A stretch of 64,000 bases of DNA from Acarospora socialis (lineage: Eukaryota; Ascomycota; Lecanoromycetes; Acarosporales; Acarosporaceae). Below, one piece after another: positions 2,865-43,888 of the stretch; within the stretch, counting starts at the first letter, position 1; each line of letters begins with the position of its first letter. The position numbers were made by a program, and so were the translations under genes. The stretch spans positions 1,240,001 through 1,304,000 of the forward strand of contig JAMYGW020000010.1 of assembly GCA_025617375.2 (NCBI GenBank), read 5' to 3'. The notes under the pieces are model-generated. The model was not told where the DNA came from and did no database searches. It saw nothing but the letters and a program-made list of their open reading frames with translations.

Positions 2865-5800
2865 ATGTTGTTCTTCTCTTCTGGTTTTGCCTTTTTGGCG
2901 GCCGCATTCATCAACTTCACACATGTTGCTGCAGTAGCACCGACGGATGAGTATACCGATGCCGACCCGGCGCAGTCGGGCTACTTGCCGAACCACAATA
3001 TGGACCCGGCCGTGGTGGACAGCTCTCAGTTTGGGCAACTGTGGAAGGTGCCCTTCAACGCCAAGGAGCAGGTAAGGACTTCCAATATCGCAACTTGGGA
3101 TGGCAGCAGCACTTGTTCACGTGTTGCTCCCACATACGTCTACGAATCCGTCGATTTCGTGGCTAATCTGCCATATAGTTTTACGCAAAACCGTTGACCT
3201 ACACACCACTCGCTGGTGGCCCGCAGCTGTTGTTCCTCGCATCTTCACAGAACTGGATCCGAACTTTGGACGCGAAAACAGGAAACATCCTCAACACTCG
3301 GCAGGTACACACGCCCTTCCTGCAGTCGGACATTGGGTGCACGGATATTGCCAATACCATCGGTATTATCGGAACTCCTGTGATAGACCCGGGCTCGGAC
3401 GTTGCGTACTTTTATTCTAAGACCTATATTCCCAACTATCGAACCGCGGGCAATACTGGGACCTACAATGGTGTCTATTACTTTCACGGTGTTAATGTAA
3501 ATACTCTACAAGACGTGCCCGGCTACCCCATCCTTATCGACGGATCGACCAGCGACAACGCCCCTTCGAAGTACTTTATCGGTGGTACCGTTCTGCAACG
3601 GCCATCTCTAGCACAGATCGGCAACGTCGTGTACGGCGCTTTTGGAGGCCACTGCGATCTCTTCAATTACACTGGTCTGGTGATTGGGATCGATATCAAT
3701 CAAAAGAAGATAGTGACCAGCTTTGCCACTGAAACTGGTCCCTTGGTCCCGCAGAGCAATGTATGGAATCAGAACGGCGGTGGCGGCCAAGGTGGTATCT
3801 GGCAGAGCGGCATGGGCTTGTCTACCGACGGCGCTCGCCTTTTCTTCGTCTCCGGTAACGGTGTCGGCCACCAGAATTCCGGTACCCCTGCATCGGGGAG
3901 CACTCCGTTGAATACATTGGGTGAAGCATGCGTGAGTGTCCATCCGGGGGTGAAGCATGTCTCATTGCTGACCAGAAGCAGGCAAATCTACAGGTTGGAG
4001 CTGGCGGCGTCCTCTCTCTAGCTGATTACTTCCAACCGTACGACTACCAAAACTTGGATGGCGGAGATCAGGACTTTGGTTCTGGCGGTATGGCCCTGCT
4101 TGATCCGGGAACCTTCAAAGGCACTGGCGTATCTCGCATGGGCGTGACCGCGGGTAAGAACGGAAAGATTTACATACTTAATGCCGATAACCTTGGAGGG
4201 TACAGACTCGGTCCTGGCCAGACGGACGGGATCATCCAAACACTCGTGACGAACAAGGCCGTGTTCGGTGGTTGCGGCTCTTATCCACTAGAGGGAGGAT
4301 ACATTTACTCCACACCCGTAGGCTATCCGACGTACGTGTACAAACTTGGCTTCACTGGCTCCGGCGTTCCCCAATTTAACCCGGCCGGTCAGAGTCATGA
4401 GAACTCTGCTGGTCGTGTCGGCGTTGGCATCCCAACAGTTACCACTTATCAAGGGAAGGCCGGCACTGCTATTCTGTGGATGACTGACCCTGACGCTGGC
4501 CTTCGCGCATGGTATGCGGTGCCCGGCGCCGATGGATTCCTGAAGACCATCAACTTGCCGCAGGTCAACGGCTTAAACAAGTTCCAGCGACCCGGATTTG
4601 GCGATAGTCGCCTCTACGTTACCGACCCTAATGGGGTACTATACTGTTTGGGTTCCCCGGTCAATCTGCCGCTTAATTGCACTTCGCCGGTCAATTTCGG
4701 CACCGTGGCTCTTGGTTCGCAGTCGACGCAAACCATTACCTGCAAGGCTAACATCGCCATCACGGCGATCAATGGCGCTACCGTTGGAGACGCCCACTTC
4801 CAGGTCAACAATTCCTCGTTACCTCAGGGTCCTGTTGCCGCCGGCACTGTCTTTAGCTTTCCCGTCACCTGGAACCTGCAAGGTACCTCGGTTTCGAATG
4901 CACAGAATGCTTCGTTCGGAAACACAACGCCAGGCGTCAAGAGCACGGCTTTGACATTGCTGACTACCAATGCCGCAACAGGCTACTCAACACAGTTTCC
5001 AATCAGCTTGACGGGAACTGAAGTCAGTTCAAACGCCTATCTCAGTCTGACACCAATCAACGTGGACTATGGAGGGGTGGTGATACTACCAAATCAAACG
5101 CCACCGACAGTCAGTTTACCATTTGTGATTGCAAACGCAGGTTCATCGCCGATGACTATTCTTGGTTACGCTTATACTAGCGATGAACTCGATAACGCTA
5201 ATATCAATTTCACTAATACGACATTTGCTGGCGACGGTACGGCAGATCTGGGACATGGCTTTACCTCCTCGAATCTCCCTGCGGTCAACACTGTCATTCA
5301 GCCAAATCAGCAAGTCTCAGTGTCATCGACATTTACTCCTGTCGACGGAATTGCGTTGTATCAATCTTATTTCAATGTATGGACAGACGGTGGCAAGGCA
5401 TATACGCTCCTGGAAGGGTCTGCTTCTGCAGCTCCAGTCGCAAATTTCTCGATAAGTACCAGCGAGGGAGGTTGGCTCCCTCAGTCGAATCTACTTATGG
5501 ACTTCGGAAAAGTAGCTCCAGGTAGCTCTTCGTCCCGGCAAATCCGCATCTGCAATGTTGGCGGTTCGGTGCTGGAGATCTCGAAATCAAAACCACCCAA
5601 TGGGGTCATCCGAGCGAGTGCCCCCGGCATCGACTTGCACGAGTCTCAGCAAATTCCCGTGGGTAGCTGTGCCTATGGTACAGTTCTCTTTATCGCACCC
5701 ACCGAGGATCCCAATGTCCCTGATCAGGTCGTCACGAACACCTGGACTCTCAATACTAACGACCTCAACTTTGGTGTTCACGAGGTTCAAATCACAGGGA

Positions 5801-8800
5801 CTATCGTTGATGTCATGGTCGGTCCAACGAACTCTACCGGAAACCCCGTCTACACGTACTTGGGTTGTTACCAAGACGGAACAGCTGGCAAACTTCTGCC
5901 AGCACAACAATGGTCCGACGCGAATAACAACAACGGTCGTTGTCAGACTGCATGCAACACTGGTAAATATATCTTTGCAGGAACAGAATACCAGAGTGAG
6001 TGCTACTGCGGTAATACACCTCCGCCAAGTCAGTACCTTAACGCAGACAACACCATGTGTTCTTTCGCTTGCTCAGGGGATGGGACTCAGCATTGCGGGG
6101 GTGTGAACGGTTTTATTAGCATATACTACGATGCTACTAGGTACACTCCGGGCAGCAGTAGTACTACTACTCCCCCTAACACCGGCCCAGGTACCACGCC
6201 GGGTGATCCTGTCACCGTCGCTCAAGTAGCGAACTACAACTACATAGGTTGTTACAGCGAGGCAACAGCTGGTCGTGCCCTTTCAGGGAAGGCCGTGGCG
6301 GCGCCTGCCACTGGAGGGACTGTGGAGAGTTGTCAAGCAGCTTGTTCTGCTTACACTTACTTTGGCGTTGAGTACTCCAACGAATGTTATTGCGGTAACA
6401 CTATCAATGCAGGCTCCGTCGCTCAGACCAGCACAAGCCCGGCAACGAACGGTTGCTCCATGTCATGTGGCGGAAACCAGACTGGTAAATTCGCTCCGTG
6501 CTGAGCCCAGATGTTCTGTTGCTGACCTCTCCACAGAGTACTGCGGCGGCCCGAACAGACTAAACATGTATTCGGTCAACGGCTCCCTGCCTGTGCCAAC
6601 CTCGTCTGCTGCAGGTCCTACGTCAACACCAACGGGCGGACCCGTGGTGGTACAAAGTGCCGGGGCGTACTCGTACATGGGATGTTACACCGAGGCCACA
6701 GCTGGCAGAGCGCTCAGTGGGCTCGCAAACCCCGAATCGGGTGCGGGTAATACCGTTGAAGCTTGTGCGGCCGCATGCACGAAATATACATATTTCGGTG
6801 TGGAGTATGGCTCGGAATGCTATTGTGGAAACTCTTTCGGCGCTGGCTCCGTTGTTGCCACTGGAGGCAACGATCCGAATGCAAACGGTTGCTCCATGAC
6901 CTGTGCCGGCAATGCAACTGAATACTGTGGCGGCCCTAATCGCCTCAACGTCTACCAACTCAATTCTACGGCTGTCACCAGCAGCTCGTCCATTACCACG
7001 TCCGGATCTGCGAACGCGGCGACGTCAGTGACTTTCACTACGTCAGCTGCTCCAACACCAACTGGTCCGATCGTTGTTCAAACGGTAGGACAGTTCGCTT
7101 TTCAAGGATGTTATAGTGAAGCGACCGGAGGACGCGCCCTAACTGGATTTGCATCCGCCAATGATTCTATGACCATCGAACTCTGTGCTGCCACTTGTGC
7201 CAGCTTTACCTGGTTCGGTGCCGAATACGGACGTGAATGTTATTGCGGGTCCAGCCCGAATGCTGGAAGCGCTTTGGTGGCGAACCAAGCCGATTGCAAC
7301 ATGATCTGTCCCGGTAACACGACAGAGTACTGTGGGGCTGGTAATCGCCTCCAGATGTACAAGTTGAGCCCTCCGGTGGCAAAAGTGTTGATAGCAAACT
7401 CGAGCACGAGTACCAACTCGAGCACGTCCGCCGCCTCAGCCTCAATAACCACCACCACAGGCTCCTCTACTGCGACTAGCTCAGATAGTTCAATAGTAGG
7501 CTCGTCCTTGTTGGTTGCGTCCTCGACTTCATCCTCATCGAGCGCATCTCCATCTCCCACCGGCCCAATCGTCGTACCAGGTAATGTCAATTTTACATAC
7601 CTGGCTTGCATGGTCGAACCTACCGGTTCACGAGCTTTGTCGAATATGGTCGTGGCGAATAATGCCATGACCGTTGAAACATGTCTCAGCTTTTGCTACA
7701 ATTACGCCTACGCTGGCCTGGAGTATGGTCAGGAGTGCTGGTGTGGTTCAACGCTTAACCCGGCTACTGTCAATGCAACTCTCCAGAGTGACTGCTCTAT
7801 GACCTGCGCAGGGAATAGCTCCGAGACCTGTGGGAACGGAAACCGTCTCACCATGTACAAACTAAAGCCCGCAGCTGTAGCGAAAGACAGTTCCTCCCTG
7901 ATCACTACAGCGACGACTTTCTCCTCGGGATCGACGACGGCGATACCGTCCTCATCAGCTACCTCCTTATCGGGGATCACTTCGCAGTCTAGTTCGTCCT
8001 CCTCTTCCGTATCACCATCCTCGACGTCATCTTCCTCGGTAGTGTCATCAGGATCGTCGAGTACTTCATCAGTGCCAACCTCCTCATCAGCGTCTTCTAC
8101 TCCATCAACATCATCCGTAGCATCGTCAGCTAGCAGTTCGTCAGCGACATCATCTTCATCCGCACCAGTCTCTAGCTCAGCATCGTCAAGCGCTTCTGGA
8201 TCAAGCACAACTCTTGCAACTTCCACAACAAGCACGACTTCATCGACCACCTTGGTGCCTACACCTGGACAGACGATCGGATCCTGGGTCCACCTTGGGT
8301 GTGCCAATGAAACGAACCCGCGTGCTTTGTCAGGCGCATCGTACACCAACACAACTGGCATGACGGTTGAGGCCTGTCAACAATTCTGCAGCAACGGCAA
8401 CAACAATTACGGTCTCGCCGGTGTGGAGTACGCGTCACAATGTTATTGCGGAAACGCCCTTCAATCATACAGTGCGCTTGGATTCACGGGCTGCAACAAG
8501 CCCTGTACCGGCAACTCGAGCGAGATCTGCGGCGGCAGCAGCCGACTGAGCGTCTACAACTCCACGACCTACATCCCGCCCACGACCGTCAAGCAAGTCG
8601 GCAGCTACGTCTCCAAGGGCTGCTACGCCGAAGGCACCAACGGTCGGCTCCTCGGCGGTGCGTCGTACAGCAACAGCACAGGCATGACGGTCGAGACCTG
8701 CGTCGCCTTCTGCAAGAACGCCAACGCCAACTACGCCGGCCTCGAGTTCGGCAAGCAATGTTTCTGCGGCAGCTCCCTCCCCTCCGCGGCAACGACGCTG

Positions 8801-8983
8801 GATGCAGGCCAATGCAATATGGTCTGTACCGGTAATAAACGCGAGTTCTGTGGCGCGGCTAGCAAGCTGAACGTTTACCTCAACGATCCTTCGTCGGTCA
8901 ATCCCGACGGCTCGCCCGCCAACATGAACACCCAGAACTCGGCGACCGTCTCGGCTGCGCCGGCGCCGACTTCTACGGCCTGA
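2865..8983 (+). CDS. Secreted quinoprotein-like / Ig-like / seven-WSC-domain protein
   Basis: Four exons, with introns at 3072-3178, 3932-3981 and 6485-6536, give about 1969 residues. The N-terminus is a signal peptide ending near the Ala-Val-Ala at residues 24-26. Residues about 35-540 look like a PQQ/quinoprotein-type beta-propeller (repeated strand-turn segments, Gly/Trp-rich). Residues about 546-936 hold three Ig-like segments of the HYDIN/choice-of-anchor type, each with a V-x-F-G-x-V-like opening. Seven WSC domains follow, starting near residues 946, 1072, 1198, 1341, 1507, 1736 and 1843, each with G-C-Y...C...C and the Y-C-G-N/S signature; domains 5 and 6 are separated by a long Ser/Thr-rich linker (about 1590-1725), likely O-mannosylated. 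WSC domains are carbohydrate-binding modules or wall-stress sensors. No C-terminal membrane anchor is visible, so a secreted or wall-bound role is inferred. The enzymatic activity of the propeller, if any, is unknown. The third intron is fixed by WSC continuity (Asn-Gln-Thr to Glu-Tyr-Cys). Confidence 0.88.
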
Positions 8984-19869: not shown

Positions 19870-22800
19870 ATGGTTCGACTCTCTGCATTCGTTGTGCTTG
19901 CTTTTGGTTAGTCAAACAACCAACGGGGCATCCGAACCCTGGCCCTCGAAGAAGGAACCGACTGACTGGTGGACACAGTTACCGCCGTGTGGTCCCGAGC
20001 GCGCCCTGTGACGACTACAGATGGCAACAGTGTCTGTGCGCAATGGTGCGCGAGTGTTTTCCCTGACCCAGGGAGCATCTGCACTTCTCCGGCTGCTCAT
20101 GGCGTAGGGCCTTGCTACGTGTGTGGCCCTTTGAAGACGTCACCCACCGAACAGTTATGCAGTGGAGTGTGCCGCGAAACCAGCAACGACGTCAACAACT
20201 GTGGAAAGTGCGCGAATACGGTAGGTTTAGATCACATGGCGCTTGTTGAATGACATTGTAGGGGAAAGCTAACTTGCCCTTGTCTTCAGTGTCCAAAGGG
20301 AGCCATCTGTGACTCAAGCTCCTGCAAGTGTACCAACAGCAAACTCCCACCATGTAATGGTGCATGCCCCGACCTCCAGACCGACAGCAATAACTGTGGG
20401 AAATGTGAAAACAAGGTATTCCATCCGCTCACTGACTCAAACGGCAGAATGATTGCTAACACAATAGTAGTGTCCTACAGGTGCAACTTGCATCGGTGGG
20501 GCTTGCGTCTGCACTAATAGTGCGCTCCCACCCTGCAATGGTGCTTGCCCGGACCTTCAGACCGACACCAAGAACTGCGGGAAATGCGAGAACAAGGTAT
20601 CTAAGCCATCCATCGAGACAAACAACAGAACTAGGCTGATTTGGCAATAGTGTCCCGACGGTGCGACATGCTCCGCAGGCGCCTGCGTTTGTACCAACAG
20701 CGGTCTTCCACCCTGCGATGGTGCATGTCCAGACCTTCAGACCGACACCACAAACTGTGGGAAATGCAAGAACAAGGTATCTAAGCCACCCGTCATGACA
20801 AACAACATAACAAGGCTGATTTGGCAACAGTGTCCCGACGGTGCGACGTGCTCCGCAGGCGCCTGCGTTTGTACCAACAGCGGCCTTCCTCCATGCAACG
20901 GTGCATGTCCAGACCTCCAAACTGACAGCAAAAATTGTGGTAAATGTGACAACAAGGTATCTTGTCGTCGCCGAGATGTACCGCAAAATGCTGATACTCA
21001 GTGTAGTGCCCAGATGGAGCGACTTGCTCTGCAGGCGCTTGTATTTGTACCAACAGCGGACTTGCACCATGTAATGGCGCATGCCCAGACCTCCAAACTG
21101 ACAGCAAAAACTGTGGCAAATGTGACAACAAGGTATCTTGTCGTCGCTGAGATGTACCGCAAAATGCTGATACTCAGTGTAGTGCCCAGATGGAGCGACT
21201 TGCTCTGCAGGCGCTTGTATTTGTACCAACAGCGGGCTTGCACCATGTAATGACGCATGCCCAGACCTCCAAACTGACAGTAAGAACTGTGGCACATGTG
21301 ACAACAAGGTAAGCTGTTGTTGCAGGGATGAAGAGCAGAATGCTAATCTATGACATAGTGTCCAGATGGCGCAACATGCTCCGCAGGCGCCTGCGTTTGT
21401 ACTAACAGCGGTCTTCCTCCTTGCAATGGAGCCTGCCCAGACCTCCAAACTGATAGTCAGAATTGTGGAAAATGCGACAATAAGGTAAGTCAATATGGAG
21501 GATATGGGCACCATACTACTGACATATCAAATAGTGTCCAGACGGCGCAACATGTGCTGCAGGTGCTTGCGTTTGTACCAACAGTGGCCTCGCACCATGT
21601 GATGGTGCATGCCCAGACCTTCAAGTTGATAGTCAAAACTGCGGAAAGTGCAAGAACAAGGTAAGTCAATTGCAATGCTATAGGCAGCATATCACTAAAG
21701 CAGGAGCTAGTGTCCAGATGGTGCAACATGTGCCAAAGGTGCTTGCGTTTGTACCAACAGTGGTCTTGCACCATGTAATGGGGCATGCCCAGACCTTCAG
21801 ACAGATAGTCAAAACTGCGGAAAGTGCGAGAACAAGGTACGTCAGTGTTGACGATGTGGGCAGCAGCAGATCACTGAAATCAAGACTAGTGTCCAGATGG
21901 TGCAACGTGTGCATCAGGTGCCTGCGTTTGTACCAACAGCAAGTTGCCTCCATGTAATGGGGCCTGCCCAGACCTCCAAACTGACGGTAAAAACTGTGGG
22001 ACATGTGGCAACAAGGTATGTCTTTCTATTGTATTAACAGCAGAAGGCTAACACAGATAGTGTCCTGATGGTGCAACATGCGCCTCAGGTGCTTGCGTTT
22101 GTACCAATAGTGGATTGGCTCCGTGCAACGGGGCCTGCCCTGACCTAAAGTCCGATAGCCAGAATTGTGGAAAATGTGGCAACACAGTGTGTTCCAGTGT
22201 GCACCCTTCCCATTTCAGCAGCTGACGTTTTTTGCCTACAGTGCCCCACGGGCTCAGCATGCTCTTCAGGTGCTTGCAAATGCACCAATAATGGGCAAGA
22301 CCTTTGCAACGGGGGTTGTCCAGATCTAGGTTCCGATAGCCGAAATTGTGGGAAATGCGGTAACACAGTATGTTCTAGCCTTCGTTTTTCTCAATTTTGC
22401 TGCTGATGTATGCCTCTAGTGCCCTGCGGGCTCAGCATGCTCTTCCGGTGCTTGCAAATGCAACAATAATGGGCAAGGTCTCTGCAATGGTGGCTGTCCA
22501 GATTTGTCCTCGGACAATAACAATTGTGGAGGATGTGGCAAGACGGTATATTTTGTCTGAGCCTACGGGATTGGAGCTACTGATGTAACCTGTTCATCAG
22601 TGTCCTGCGGGCTCAACATGTTCTGGAGGTGCCTGCAAGTGCAGTAACAGTGGGCAAGGCCTCTGCAACGGTGGTTGTCCAGATCTGTCGTTGGACAATA
22701 ACAATTGTGGGGGATGTGGCAGGACAGTATGTTCAAATCTGAGTCCTTCCCTTCTGATTGCTGATGTGCCTTGTCAATCAGTGTCCTGGCGGCACATCAT

Positions 22801-23362
22801 GCTCTTCAGGATCTTGCAAGTGCACCAATAGCGGGCAACCTCAATGCAACGGCGGCTGTCCTGATTACTCGTCGGACAACAACAATTGCGGAGGGTGCGG
22901 TCGTGGGGTACGTCACACCTGTATTTTCCCCTCGTGAGACGACTGCAACCTGACCGATTTATGATCAGTGTGGGCCGGGTACAGCGTGTAGGGGCGGCAA
23001 TTGCGTCTCGACATGCTCCATCACCAATGGCGGTTCCACCTTGCTCACGTTATATACCTATCCAGCCTCGACGTGTGGCGCTGGTCAAACCAGCAATACC
23101 ATCAAGACCGCCGGCTGCTGTGCTTCGAGGGCATCTTTCGGCAACTTTGGGGGTGCTCAGGTCAGTATTGCCGGTGGTCAGAGCGGCTGCGGGGGTGAGT
23201 CTCACATACACTCTTGGAAATGGTTCAATCACGGACTAATGTTGGAACGTAGCCTATTTCTACACCGACGCGTCTTGCACTCAGGGCCAGTCGGCAAAGG
23301 TTGTGCCTTACTTCCAATGCTTGGACGCTACCAAGTACCAGAGCTTCCAAATCCTGTGTTGA
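19870..23362 (+). CDS. Secreted cysteine-rich protein with 15 tandem 42-residue exon-encoded repeats
   Basis: I assemble 19 exons: 19870-19906, 19979-20220, fifteen 126-nt repeat exons between 20290 and 22907, then 22969-23194 and 23253-23362, giving about 834 residues. The start gives a hydrophobic signal peptide (M-V-R-L-S-A-F-V-V-L-A-F). Exon 2 carries an N-terminal Cys-rich region ending in a half repeat (N-N-C-G-K-C). Each repeat has eight Cys at positions 1, 7, 12, 14, 22, 26, 36 and 39, typically with C-P-D-G-A-T-C and N-C-G-K-C. The C-terminal ~110 residues are unique, with further Cys and a terminal I-L-C. The N-C-G-x-C pattern recalls Stig1-like and bacterial Cys-rich repeats, but I do not assign a family. 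Extracellular, disulfide-rich structure is inferred. Every repeat intron is phase 0, so whole repeats can be gained, lost or skipped without changing frame. Confidence 0.82.
20290..22907 (+). repeat. Tandem array of 15 exon-plus-intron units (about 171-182 bp each)
   Basis: Unit exons start at 20290, 20471, 20651, 20831, 21007, 21183, 21359, 21535, 21711, 21890, 22061, 22242, 22420, 22601 and 22782, and each is exactly 126 nt. The introns between them are 45-55 nt. Two subfamilies are visible: units 1-11 (P-D-L-Q-T-D type, unit 11 transitional) and units 12-15 (G-Q-x-x-C-N-G-G-C type). Neighbouring units share their introns as well as their exons: the introns after units 4 and 5 differ at a single base, and those after units 2 and 3 are clearly related. 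The duplicated unit was therefore genomic (exon plus intron), and some duplications are recent. Confidence 0.9.
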
Positions 23363-43677: not shown

Positions 43678-43888
43678 TTGAAGCGAAGGATGCAGGATTA
43701 TCAGTGTTGTCGTCCGTCACATTAATTGTGTATGACCTCCGCTCCTTGAAGCGAAGGATGCAGGATTATCAGTGTTGTCGTCCGTCACATTAATTGTGTA
43801 TGACCTCCGCTCCTTGAAGCGAAGGATGCAGGATTATCAGTGTTGTCGTCCGTCACATTAATTGTGTATGACCTCCGCTCCTTGAAGC
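43678..43888. repeat. Three perfect 68-bp tandem copies
   Basis: Copies start at 43678, 43746 and 43814, each beginning TTGAAGCGAAGG and ending CTCCGCTCC; a seven-base start of a fourth copy follows (43882-43888). The three copies appear identical, so the expansion is recent or recently homogenised, or an assembly artefact. The array lies 415-625 bp upstream of the Bcd1-like start codon. Confidence 0.92.

Follow-up and report, generated by a model that had tools for sequence, protein, structure and literature searches.

A putative secreted STIG1-type repeat protein of Acarospora socialis, with sixteen modules and an exon array that probably grew by tandem duplication

How does a fungal gene come to carry fifteen consecutive exons of one length, each with the same spacing of cysteines, and what does one such exon encode? 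The question is raised by a locus of Acarospora socialis that lies in a stretch of 64,000 nucleotides of contig JAMYGW020000010.1, the whole of which is called the window here. Joining its exons at candidate splice sites gave a model of 19 exons on the plus strand (19870-23362) for an 834-aa protein with 140 Cys (Table 1).

Table 1. Features of the modelled gene, with positions counted from the first letter of the window
Feature	Position	Strand	Description
Exon 1	19870..19906	+	Start codon; hydrophobic N-terminus resembling a secretion signal
Exon 2	19979..20220	+	Cys-containing N-terminal region; its end, CSGVC...NCGKCANT, is the opening half of module 1
Exons 3-17 (array)	20290..22907	+	15 exons of 126 nt each; PF04885 Stig1
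Recent duplication (intron 6 + exon 7 / intron 7 + exon 8)	20957..21308	+	176 nt each, 6 differences
Exon 18	22969..23194	+	Closing half of module 16 (CGPGTACRGGNCVSTC), then start of the C-terminal region
Exon 19	23253..23362	+	Remainder of the C-terminal region; stop codon

An array of uniform exons

The original prediction was that fifteen consecutive exons of exactly 126 nt, in phase 0, begin with the Cys1 codon directly after AG and keep eight Cys in fixed positions, and all 15 units agree with it. Each of the 15 (20290-22907) is 126 nt long, is preceded by AG and followed by GT, has an open frame, starts with TGT or TGC and carries Cys at residues 1, 7, 12, 14, 22, 26, 36 and 39. In our sequence-based model exons 3-17 are in phase 0 at both ends, and in the alignment of their 42-aa units 16 of 42 columns are invariant, with a mean column identity of 81%. 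When both strands were scanned for AG followed by TGY, 41 further open codons and GT, we found 17 places on the plus strand, 15 of them with eight Cys and all of these within the array, and none on the minus strand; in the control, one strand each of 20 first-order Markov sequences, there were 1.3 places on average and none with eight Cys. Because the scan itself demands AG and GT, their presence is not independent evidence of splicing.

Such evidence comes from the introns and from the edges of the exons. The 14 introns within the array are 45-55 nt long, and of the 18 introns of the model, 16 (all except introns 10 and 11) have a branch-like CTRAY motif at 8-40 nt from their 3' end, compared with 2.35 on average and at most 9 in 1000 shuffles. 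Exon columns hold 1.61, 1.57 and 0.76 bits at codon positions 1, 2 and 3, and flanking intron columns hold 0.0-0.6 bits outside the splice-site positions, so that conservation drops at the exon edges; the informative intron columns are donor positions +3 (1.6 bits), +4 (0.8) and +6 (1.4), acceptor position -3 (1.1) and, standing by itself, column -22 (1.1). Among introns 2-17, retention would bring an in-frame stop inside the intron in 10 of 16; of the remaining six, five have a length not divisible by three, and only intron 5 (54 nt) would keep the frame without adding a stop. Upstream of the array, the reading frame continues from exon 1 into exon 2 over a GT-AG intron that has CTGAC at -17, and splicing throughout leaves a single uninterrupted frame of 834 aa, hydrophobic at its N-terminus. 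We infer that splicing in vivo very likely takes place at the exon edges given here. The acceptor of exon 4 (20463-20470, plus strand) reads AATAG-TAG-TGT, in which splicing at the upstream AG would make TAG, a stop, the first codon of the exon.

Sixteen modules, each divided by an intron

Compared with Pfam, the 834-aa protein matches PF04885 (Stig1) with 251.8 bits (E 4.8e-76) over 15 stretches, a whole-protein score above the curated cut-off of 24.1 bits. The best of the 15 stretches (residues 281-315) aligns to profile positions 48-82 of 85, and since it covers only part of the model, our claim is of a STIG1-type module and not of an orthologue of plant STIG1. It also spans the junction of exons 7 and 8 at residues 303/304, which goes against the expectation of one module per exon. 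Counted in the Pfam register, from the Cys22-type residue, there are 16 complete modules running from exon 2 to exon 18, and a single phase-0 intron interrupts every one of them at a constant position. With all modules cut at one place, each exon carries Cys1-Cys14 as the closing half of a module and, after it, Cys22-Cys39 as the opening half of the following one; judged from these alignments, whether an exon holds one module is a matter of the register chosen, and the exon is not the Pfam module.

Interchangeability of the units was borne out, in that every one of the 256 possible joins of an opening half to a closing half restores the canonical Cys pattern (tolerating one to three residues ahead of the last Cys), so that loss, gain or skipping of an exon would keep both the frame and the pattern. 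The NCBIfam family NF041328 was reached with 109.7 bits (cut-off 100) by a 168-aa typed excerpt in which units 4-5 are joined to units 12-13 and which is thus not a natural protein. The granulin family was absent from the Pfam rows of the 834-aa protein at E <= 10, residues 1-71 alone had no Pfam match, the 96-aa C-terminal region (22969-23362, plus strand) had none at E <= 10, and Rfam gave no match at the gathering score.

Relatives in bacteria

A profile search with the 42-residue unit had been proposed as a way of finding relatives. With the 42-aa alignment none was confirmed among 22 prokaryote-genome and 44 viral-contig pattern stretches; it was the 126-aa alignment that succeeded, taking 155 candidate pattern stretches in the prokaryote genome collection to 56 confirmed loci, while 45 pattern stretches in viral contigs yielded none. 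The plasmid search returned two Sandaracinus records. By title, the 56 loci belong to myxobacteria (19), ‘Deltaproteobacteria’ or ‘delta proteobacterium’ (25), ‘Proteobacteria’ (7), Bdellovibrio (2), archaea (2; L003 and L050) and a bacterium (1); in the tree labels the ‘Deltaproteobacteria’ rows appear as Myxococcota and the ‘uncultured delta proteobacterium’ rows carry no phylum.

These loci also hold arrays, as open frames without introns. The best open frame has at least two motifs in 50 of the 56 loci (motifs are listed for 55, L051 having none), 43 aa is the commonest distance from motif to motif, with 119 spacings, and the longest frames contain 23 and 24 motifs. In 309 modules from 40 of the 56 loci, seven of the eight Cys are spaced identically, and all 46 of the three-module bacterial segments submitted to Pfam matched PF04885. 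Of 51 extracted segments 46 were aligned, the five less regular ones (one each from L001, L012, L022, L026 and L027) being omitted by hand. One locus of archaeal title (L003:2530-3885), from a metagenome-assembled genome named Methanomicrobiales archaeon, codes for a repeat protein of STIG1 type in which some modules have the fungal-like CxC spacing.

Modules of the fungal array share 70% identity on average, and a fungal and a bacterial module 48%. A module tree was built on 33 columns from the 16 fungal modules and 112 of the 309 bacterial ones, taking the first three or fewer of each locus. In this tree 15 of the 16 fungal modules share one starred branch (99/91), but the first stands outside it, and all 16 are united in 0% of 200 bootstrap trees, so the tree lends no support to one origin of all 16; 67 of its 122 inner branches are open, and the bootstrap is unsettled.

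Age and growth of the array

Adjacent exons of the array are 71-96% identical. Synonymous divergence (NG86 dS) was estimable for 13 of the 14 adjacent unit pairs, pair 1/2 giving no estimate, and amounts to 1.50, 0.56, 1.15, 0.12, 1.79, 2.79 and 0.38 for pairs 2/3 to 8/9 and to 1.09, 3.03, 1.51, 1.27, 0.77 and 2.02 for pairs 9/10 to 14/15. The value is at least 0.77 in 10 of the 13 and below 0.3 in one (units 5/6, 0.12). From these sequence comparisons the array looks old, with exons 7 and 8 (units 5/6) as its sole recent copy, the blocks of intron 6 plus exon 7 and intron 7 plus exon 8 differing at 6 of 176 sites. Neighbouring units differ by a dN of 0.02-0.20, and the 40 of 105 unit pairs that were usable (0 < dS < 3) have a median dN/dS of 0.09, a low ratio that points to purifying selection on the exons.

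These values also bear on a possible artefact of the gene model or the assembly, in which regular exons would be imposed on a decaying repeat or the number of copies would be mistaken. An extra copy could hide at units 5 and 6, which are 96% alike; the other adjacent units, at 71-89% identity, are distinguishable, and 15 units of equal length without a stop, relaxed third positions, a dN/dS of about 0.09 and branch sites in 16 of 18 introns make such an artefact extremely improbable.

Introns, compared after their splice sites had been trimmed, resemble each other mainly in local clusters, with z of 11.3 for introns 4/5, 14.7 for 6/7, 5.2-5.4 for 6-7/8, 3.4-5.0 among 9-11, 3.6 for 13/14 and 3.7 for 13/16. 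Six of the 13 adjacent pairs reach only 0.2-1.7, and the distant pair 3/12 reaches 3.5; drift and chance can explain both. Intron similarity tracks exon identity, with Spearman coefficients of 0.33 and 0.29 over pairs that are not independent of one another. Local clusters of similar introns and near-identical blocks of 176 nt are what would be expected after stepwise duplication of blocks followed by drift of the introns, and the pattern supports past growth by duplication of exon-intron blocks.

Alternatively, introns could have been inserted independently into an intronless ancestral array, at a preferred site in each repeat, for instance by introner-like elements. The open, intronless arrays of the same repeat in bacteria are compatible with such an origin, as are the six adjacent intron pairs without detectable similarity. 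We consider it very unlikely, given that the array introns all lie at one codon boundary and in one phase, that several clusters of neighbouring introns are clearly similar and follow the similarity of the exons, and that introns recently brought in by an element would be expected to be alike throughout and not mainly among neighbours.

The original prediction allowed for variation of copy number in populations, which the recent copy of units 5/6 favours and the single adjacent dS below 0.3 among the 13 speaks against, leaving this part weakly supported. More generally, the locus might be variable in length, with unequal exchange changing exon number among strains and/or exon-skipping isoforms tuning the length or valence of a rod. 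Every exon being neutral to the frame, with all 256 half-to-half joins canonical, and the one recent 176-nt duplication with 6 differences would suit this idea. Most neighbours have, however, diverged synonymously; no two units match exactly over more than 53 nt, and the median of their longest exact matches is 11 nt, which leaves little present substrate for unequal exchange except in the pair of exons 7 and 8; and introns of 45-55 nt, lying between short exons, suggest intron definition, with which, from general knowledge of fungal splicing, skipping would be uncommon. Such active variation is in our judgment unlikely.

We therefore rank tandem duplication first, ahead of active copy-number variation, independent intron insertion and an artefact, and consider the account as a whole likely. 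It would have the following steps: 16 tandem STIG1-type modules, set between a short N-terminal region and the 96-aa C-terminal region, would have arisen as the array grew by repeated tandem duplication of exon-plus-intron blocks; purifying selection would then have held the exons while the introns drifted; and the product would be an elongated, disulfide-braced extracellular rod or multivalent binder of the cell wall or matrix.

A further and decidedly speculative suggestion, which we would give little credence at present, is that the introns are kept as breakers of homology. Drifting spacers of 45-55 nt would guard the array from recombinational collapse and repeat-induced mutation, and the exons would stay frame-neutral so that splicing could alter the length of the rod. 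RIP-like dinucleotide bias is absent from the array (TA/AT 0.64 against 0.71 in the window; (CA+TG)/(AC+GT) 1.47 against 1.16), which fits this suggestion and proves little. If it were true, the exon grid would stabilise a repeat gene in the genome and leave flexibility in its RNA.

Predicted structure and putative role

Plant STIG1 proteins are short and secreted. The 834-aa protein is putatively secreted, its spliced model having a hydrophobic N-terminus. A three-module bacterial relative was predicted confidently, with pLDDT 94.3 and pTM 0.69 as a fold with ten short strands. Foldseek searches with this model against PDB and viral models gave nothing at E <= 0.001; the weak rows were EGF-like and TNFR-like, and the top PDB rows were EGF-type modules at TMq 0.2-0.3, too weak for an assignment of the fold. 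The PDB sequence search gave a single match at chance level (E 1.2). Because the model is that of a bacterial relative and matches nothing in PDB at E <= 0.001, the rod shape is something that we infer, the natural reading of the prediction being that the fungal protein would form a chain of small beads braced by disulfides. Its putative role would be that of a spacer in the wall or matrix or of a multivalent binder outside the cell.

Surroundings of the gene

Other genes of the window were scanned as raw open frames, 15 in all, and the domains found in neighbouring frames were WSC, inositol polyphosphate kinase, TBC, DENN and kinesin; together with the shortness of the introns they are, from general knowledge, in keeping with a filamentous ascomycete. 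Open frames at 3925-8980 on the plus strand have two and five WSC-domain stretches; the five share one uninterrupted frame and form a tandem Cys-rich array without an intron per module. A perfect tandem repeat at 43678-43888 has 3.1 copies of a 68-bp unit, a length not divisible by three. An open frame of 352-356 aa runs antisense to the gene (20456-21526, minus strand), covers most of exons 4-9 with their introns and is probably a by-product of the codon make-up of the STIG1-type repeat.

Comparison with known systems

The Cys-rich module of PF04885 is common to the plant STIG1 family and the fungal protein, which differs in having 16 tandem modules, an unmatched C-terminal region and an intron in every module. 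With the myxobacterial MXAN_6577-like proteins (NF041328) and the long myxobacterial arrays the fungal gene shares the repeat, but those arrays are bacterial and intronless whereas the fungal gene is split by introns, and the seventh and eighth Cys form CxxxC in the 43-aa bacterial arrays listed and CxC in the fungal units. A Stig1 domain in fungi is not new, to judge from the section on small secreted proteins in a paper on nematode-trapping fungi, where the available text names Stig1 among the domains (PMC3828140). In a table of the same source, two such fungi have 3.3 and 3.8 exons per gene, compared with the 19 modelled here. Among the matches listed in our literature searches, nearly all judged by title and the start of the abstract, no paper describes a fungal Stig1 exon array.

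Runs of exons equal in length and phase are known from the LRR genes of Tetrahymena, where, according to the part of the report available, arrays of exactly 90-bp exons in phase 2 are attributed to clonal exon expansion and the authors were unaware of LRR genes with such 90-bp arrays in any other organism (PMC6564038). By the rule of at least three consecutive exons with common length and phase that defines an array of the Tetrahymena LRR type, the run here has 15. The differences are that the ciliate arrays encode leucine-rich repeats, are in phase 2 and occur in many genes (PMC6564038, in the same part). Progranulin offers the other likeness, which is one of exon layout only: in its CN exons, as described in the portion of the source available, the end of one Cys-rich module is joined to the start of the next, and exon duplication has given near-identical tandem modules (PMC4527844). 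It differs in its 12-Cys granulin motif and mixed exon types, and its authors, in that portion, detected a granulin-related gene in no fungal species (PMC4527844).

The fungal gene thus joins an array of equal-length exons with exons that straddle modules, on a third type of repeat. Both the domain and the type of exon array are known, and their combination is new as far as our literature searches reach. It offers a clean natural case of a protein that would have been lengthened by the copying of exon-intron blocks, and raises the questions of whether introns stabilise tandem repeats and whether fungi use symmetric exons for isoforms. It also links a repeat of intronless bacterial arrays to an exon layout known in ciliates and animals.
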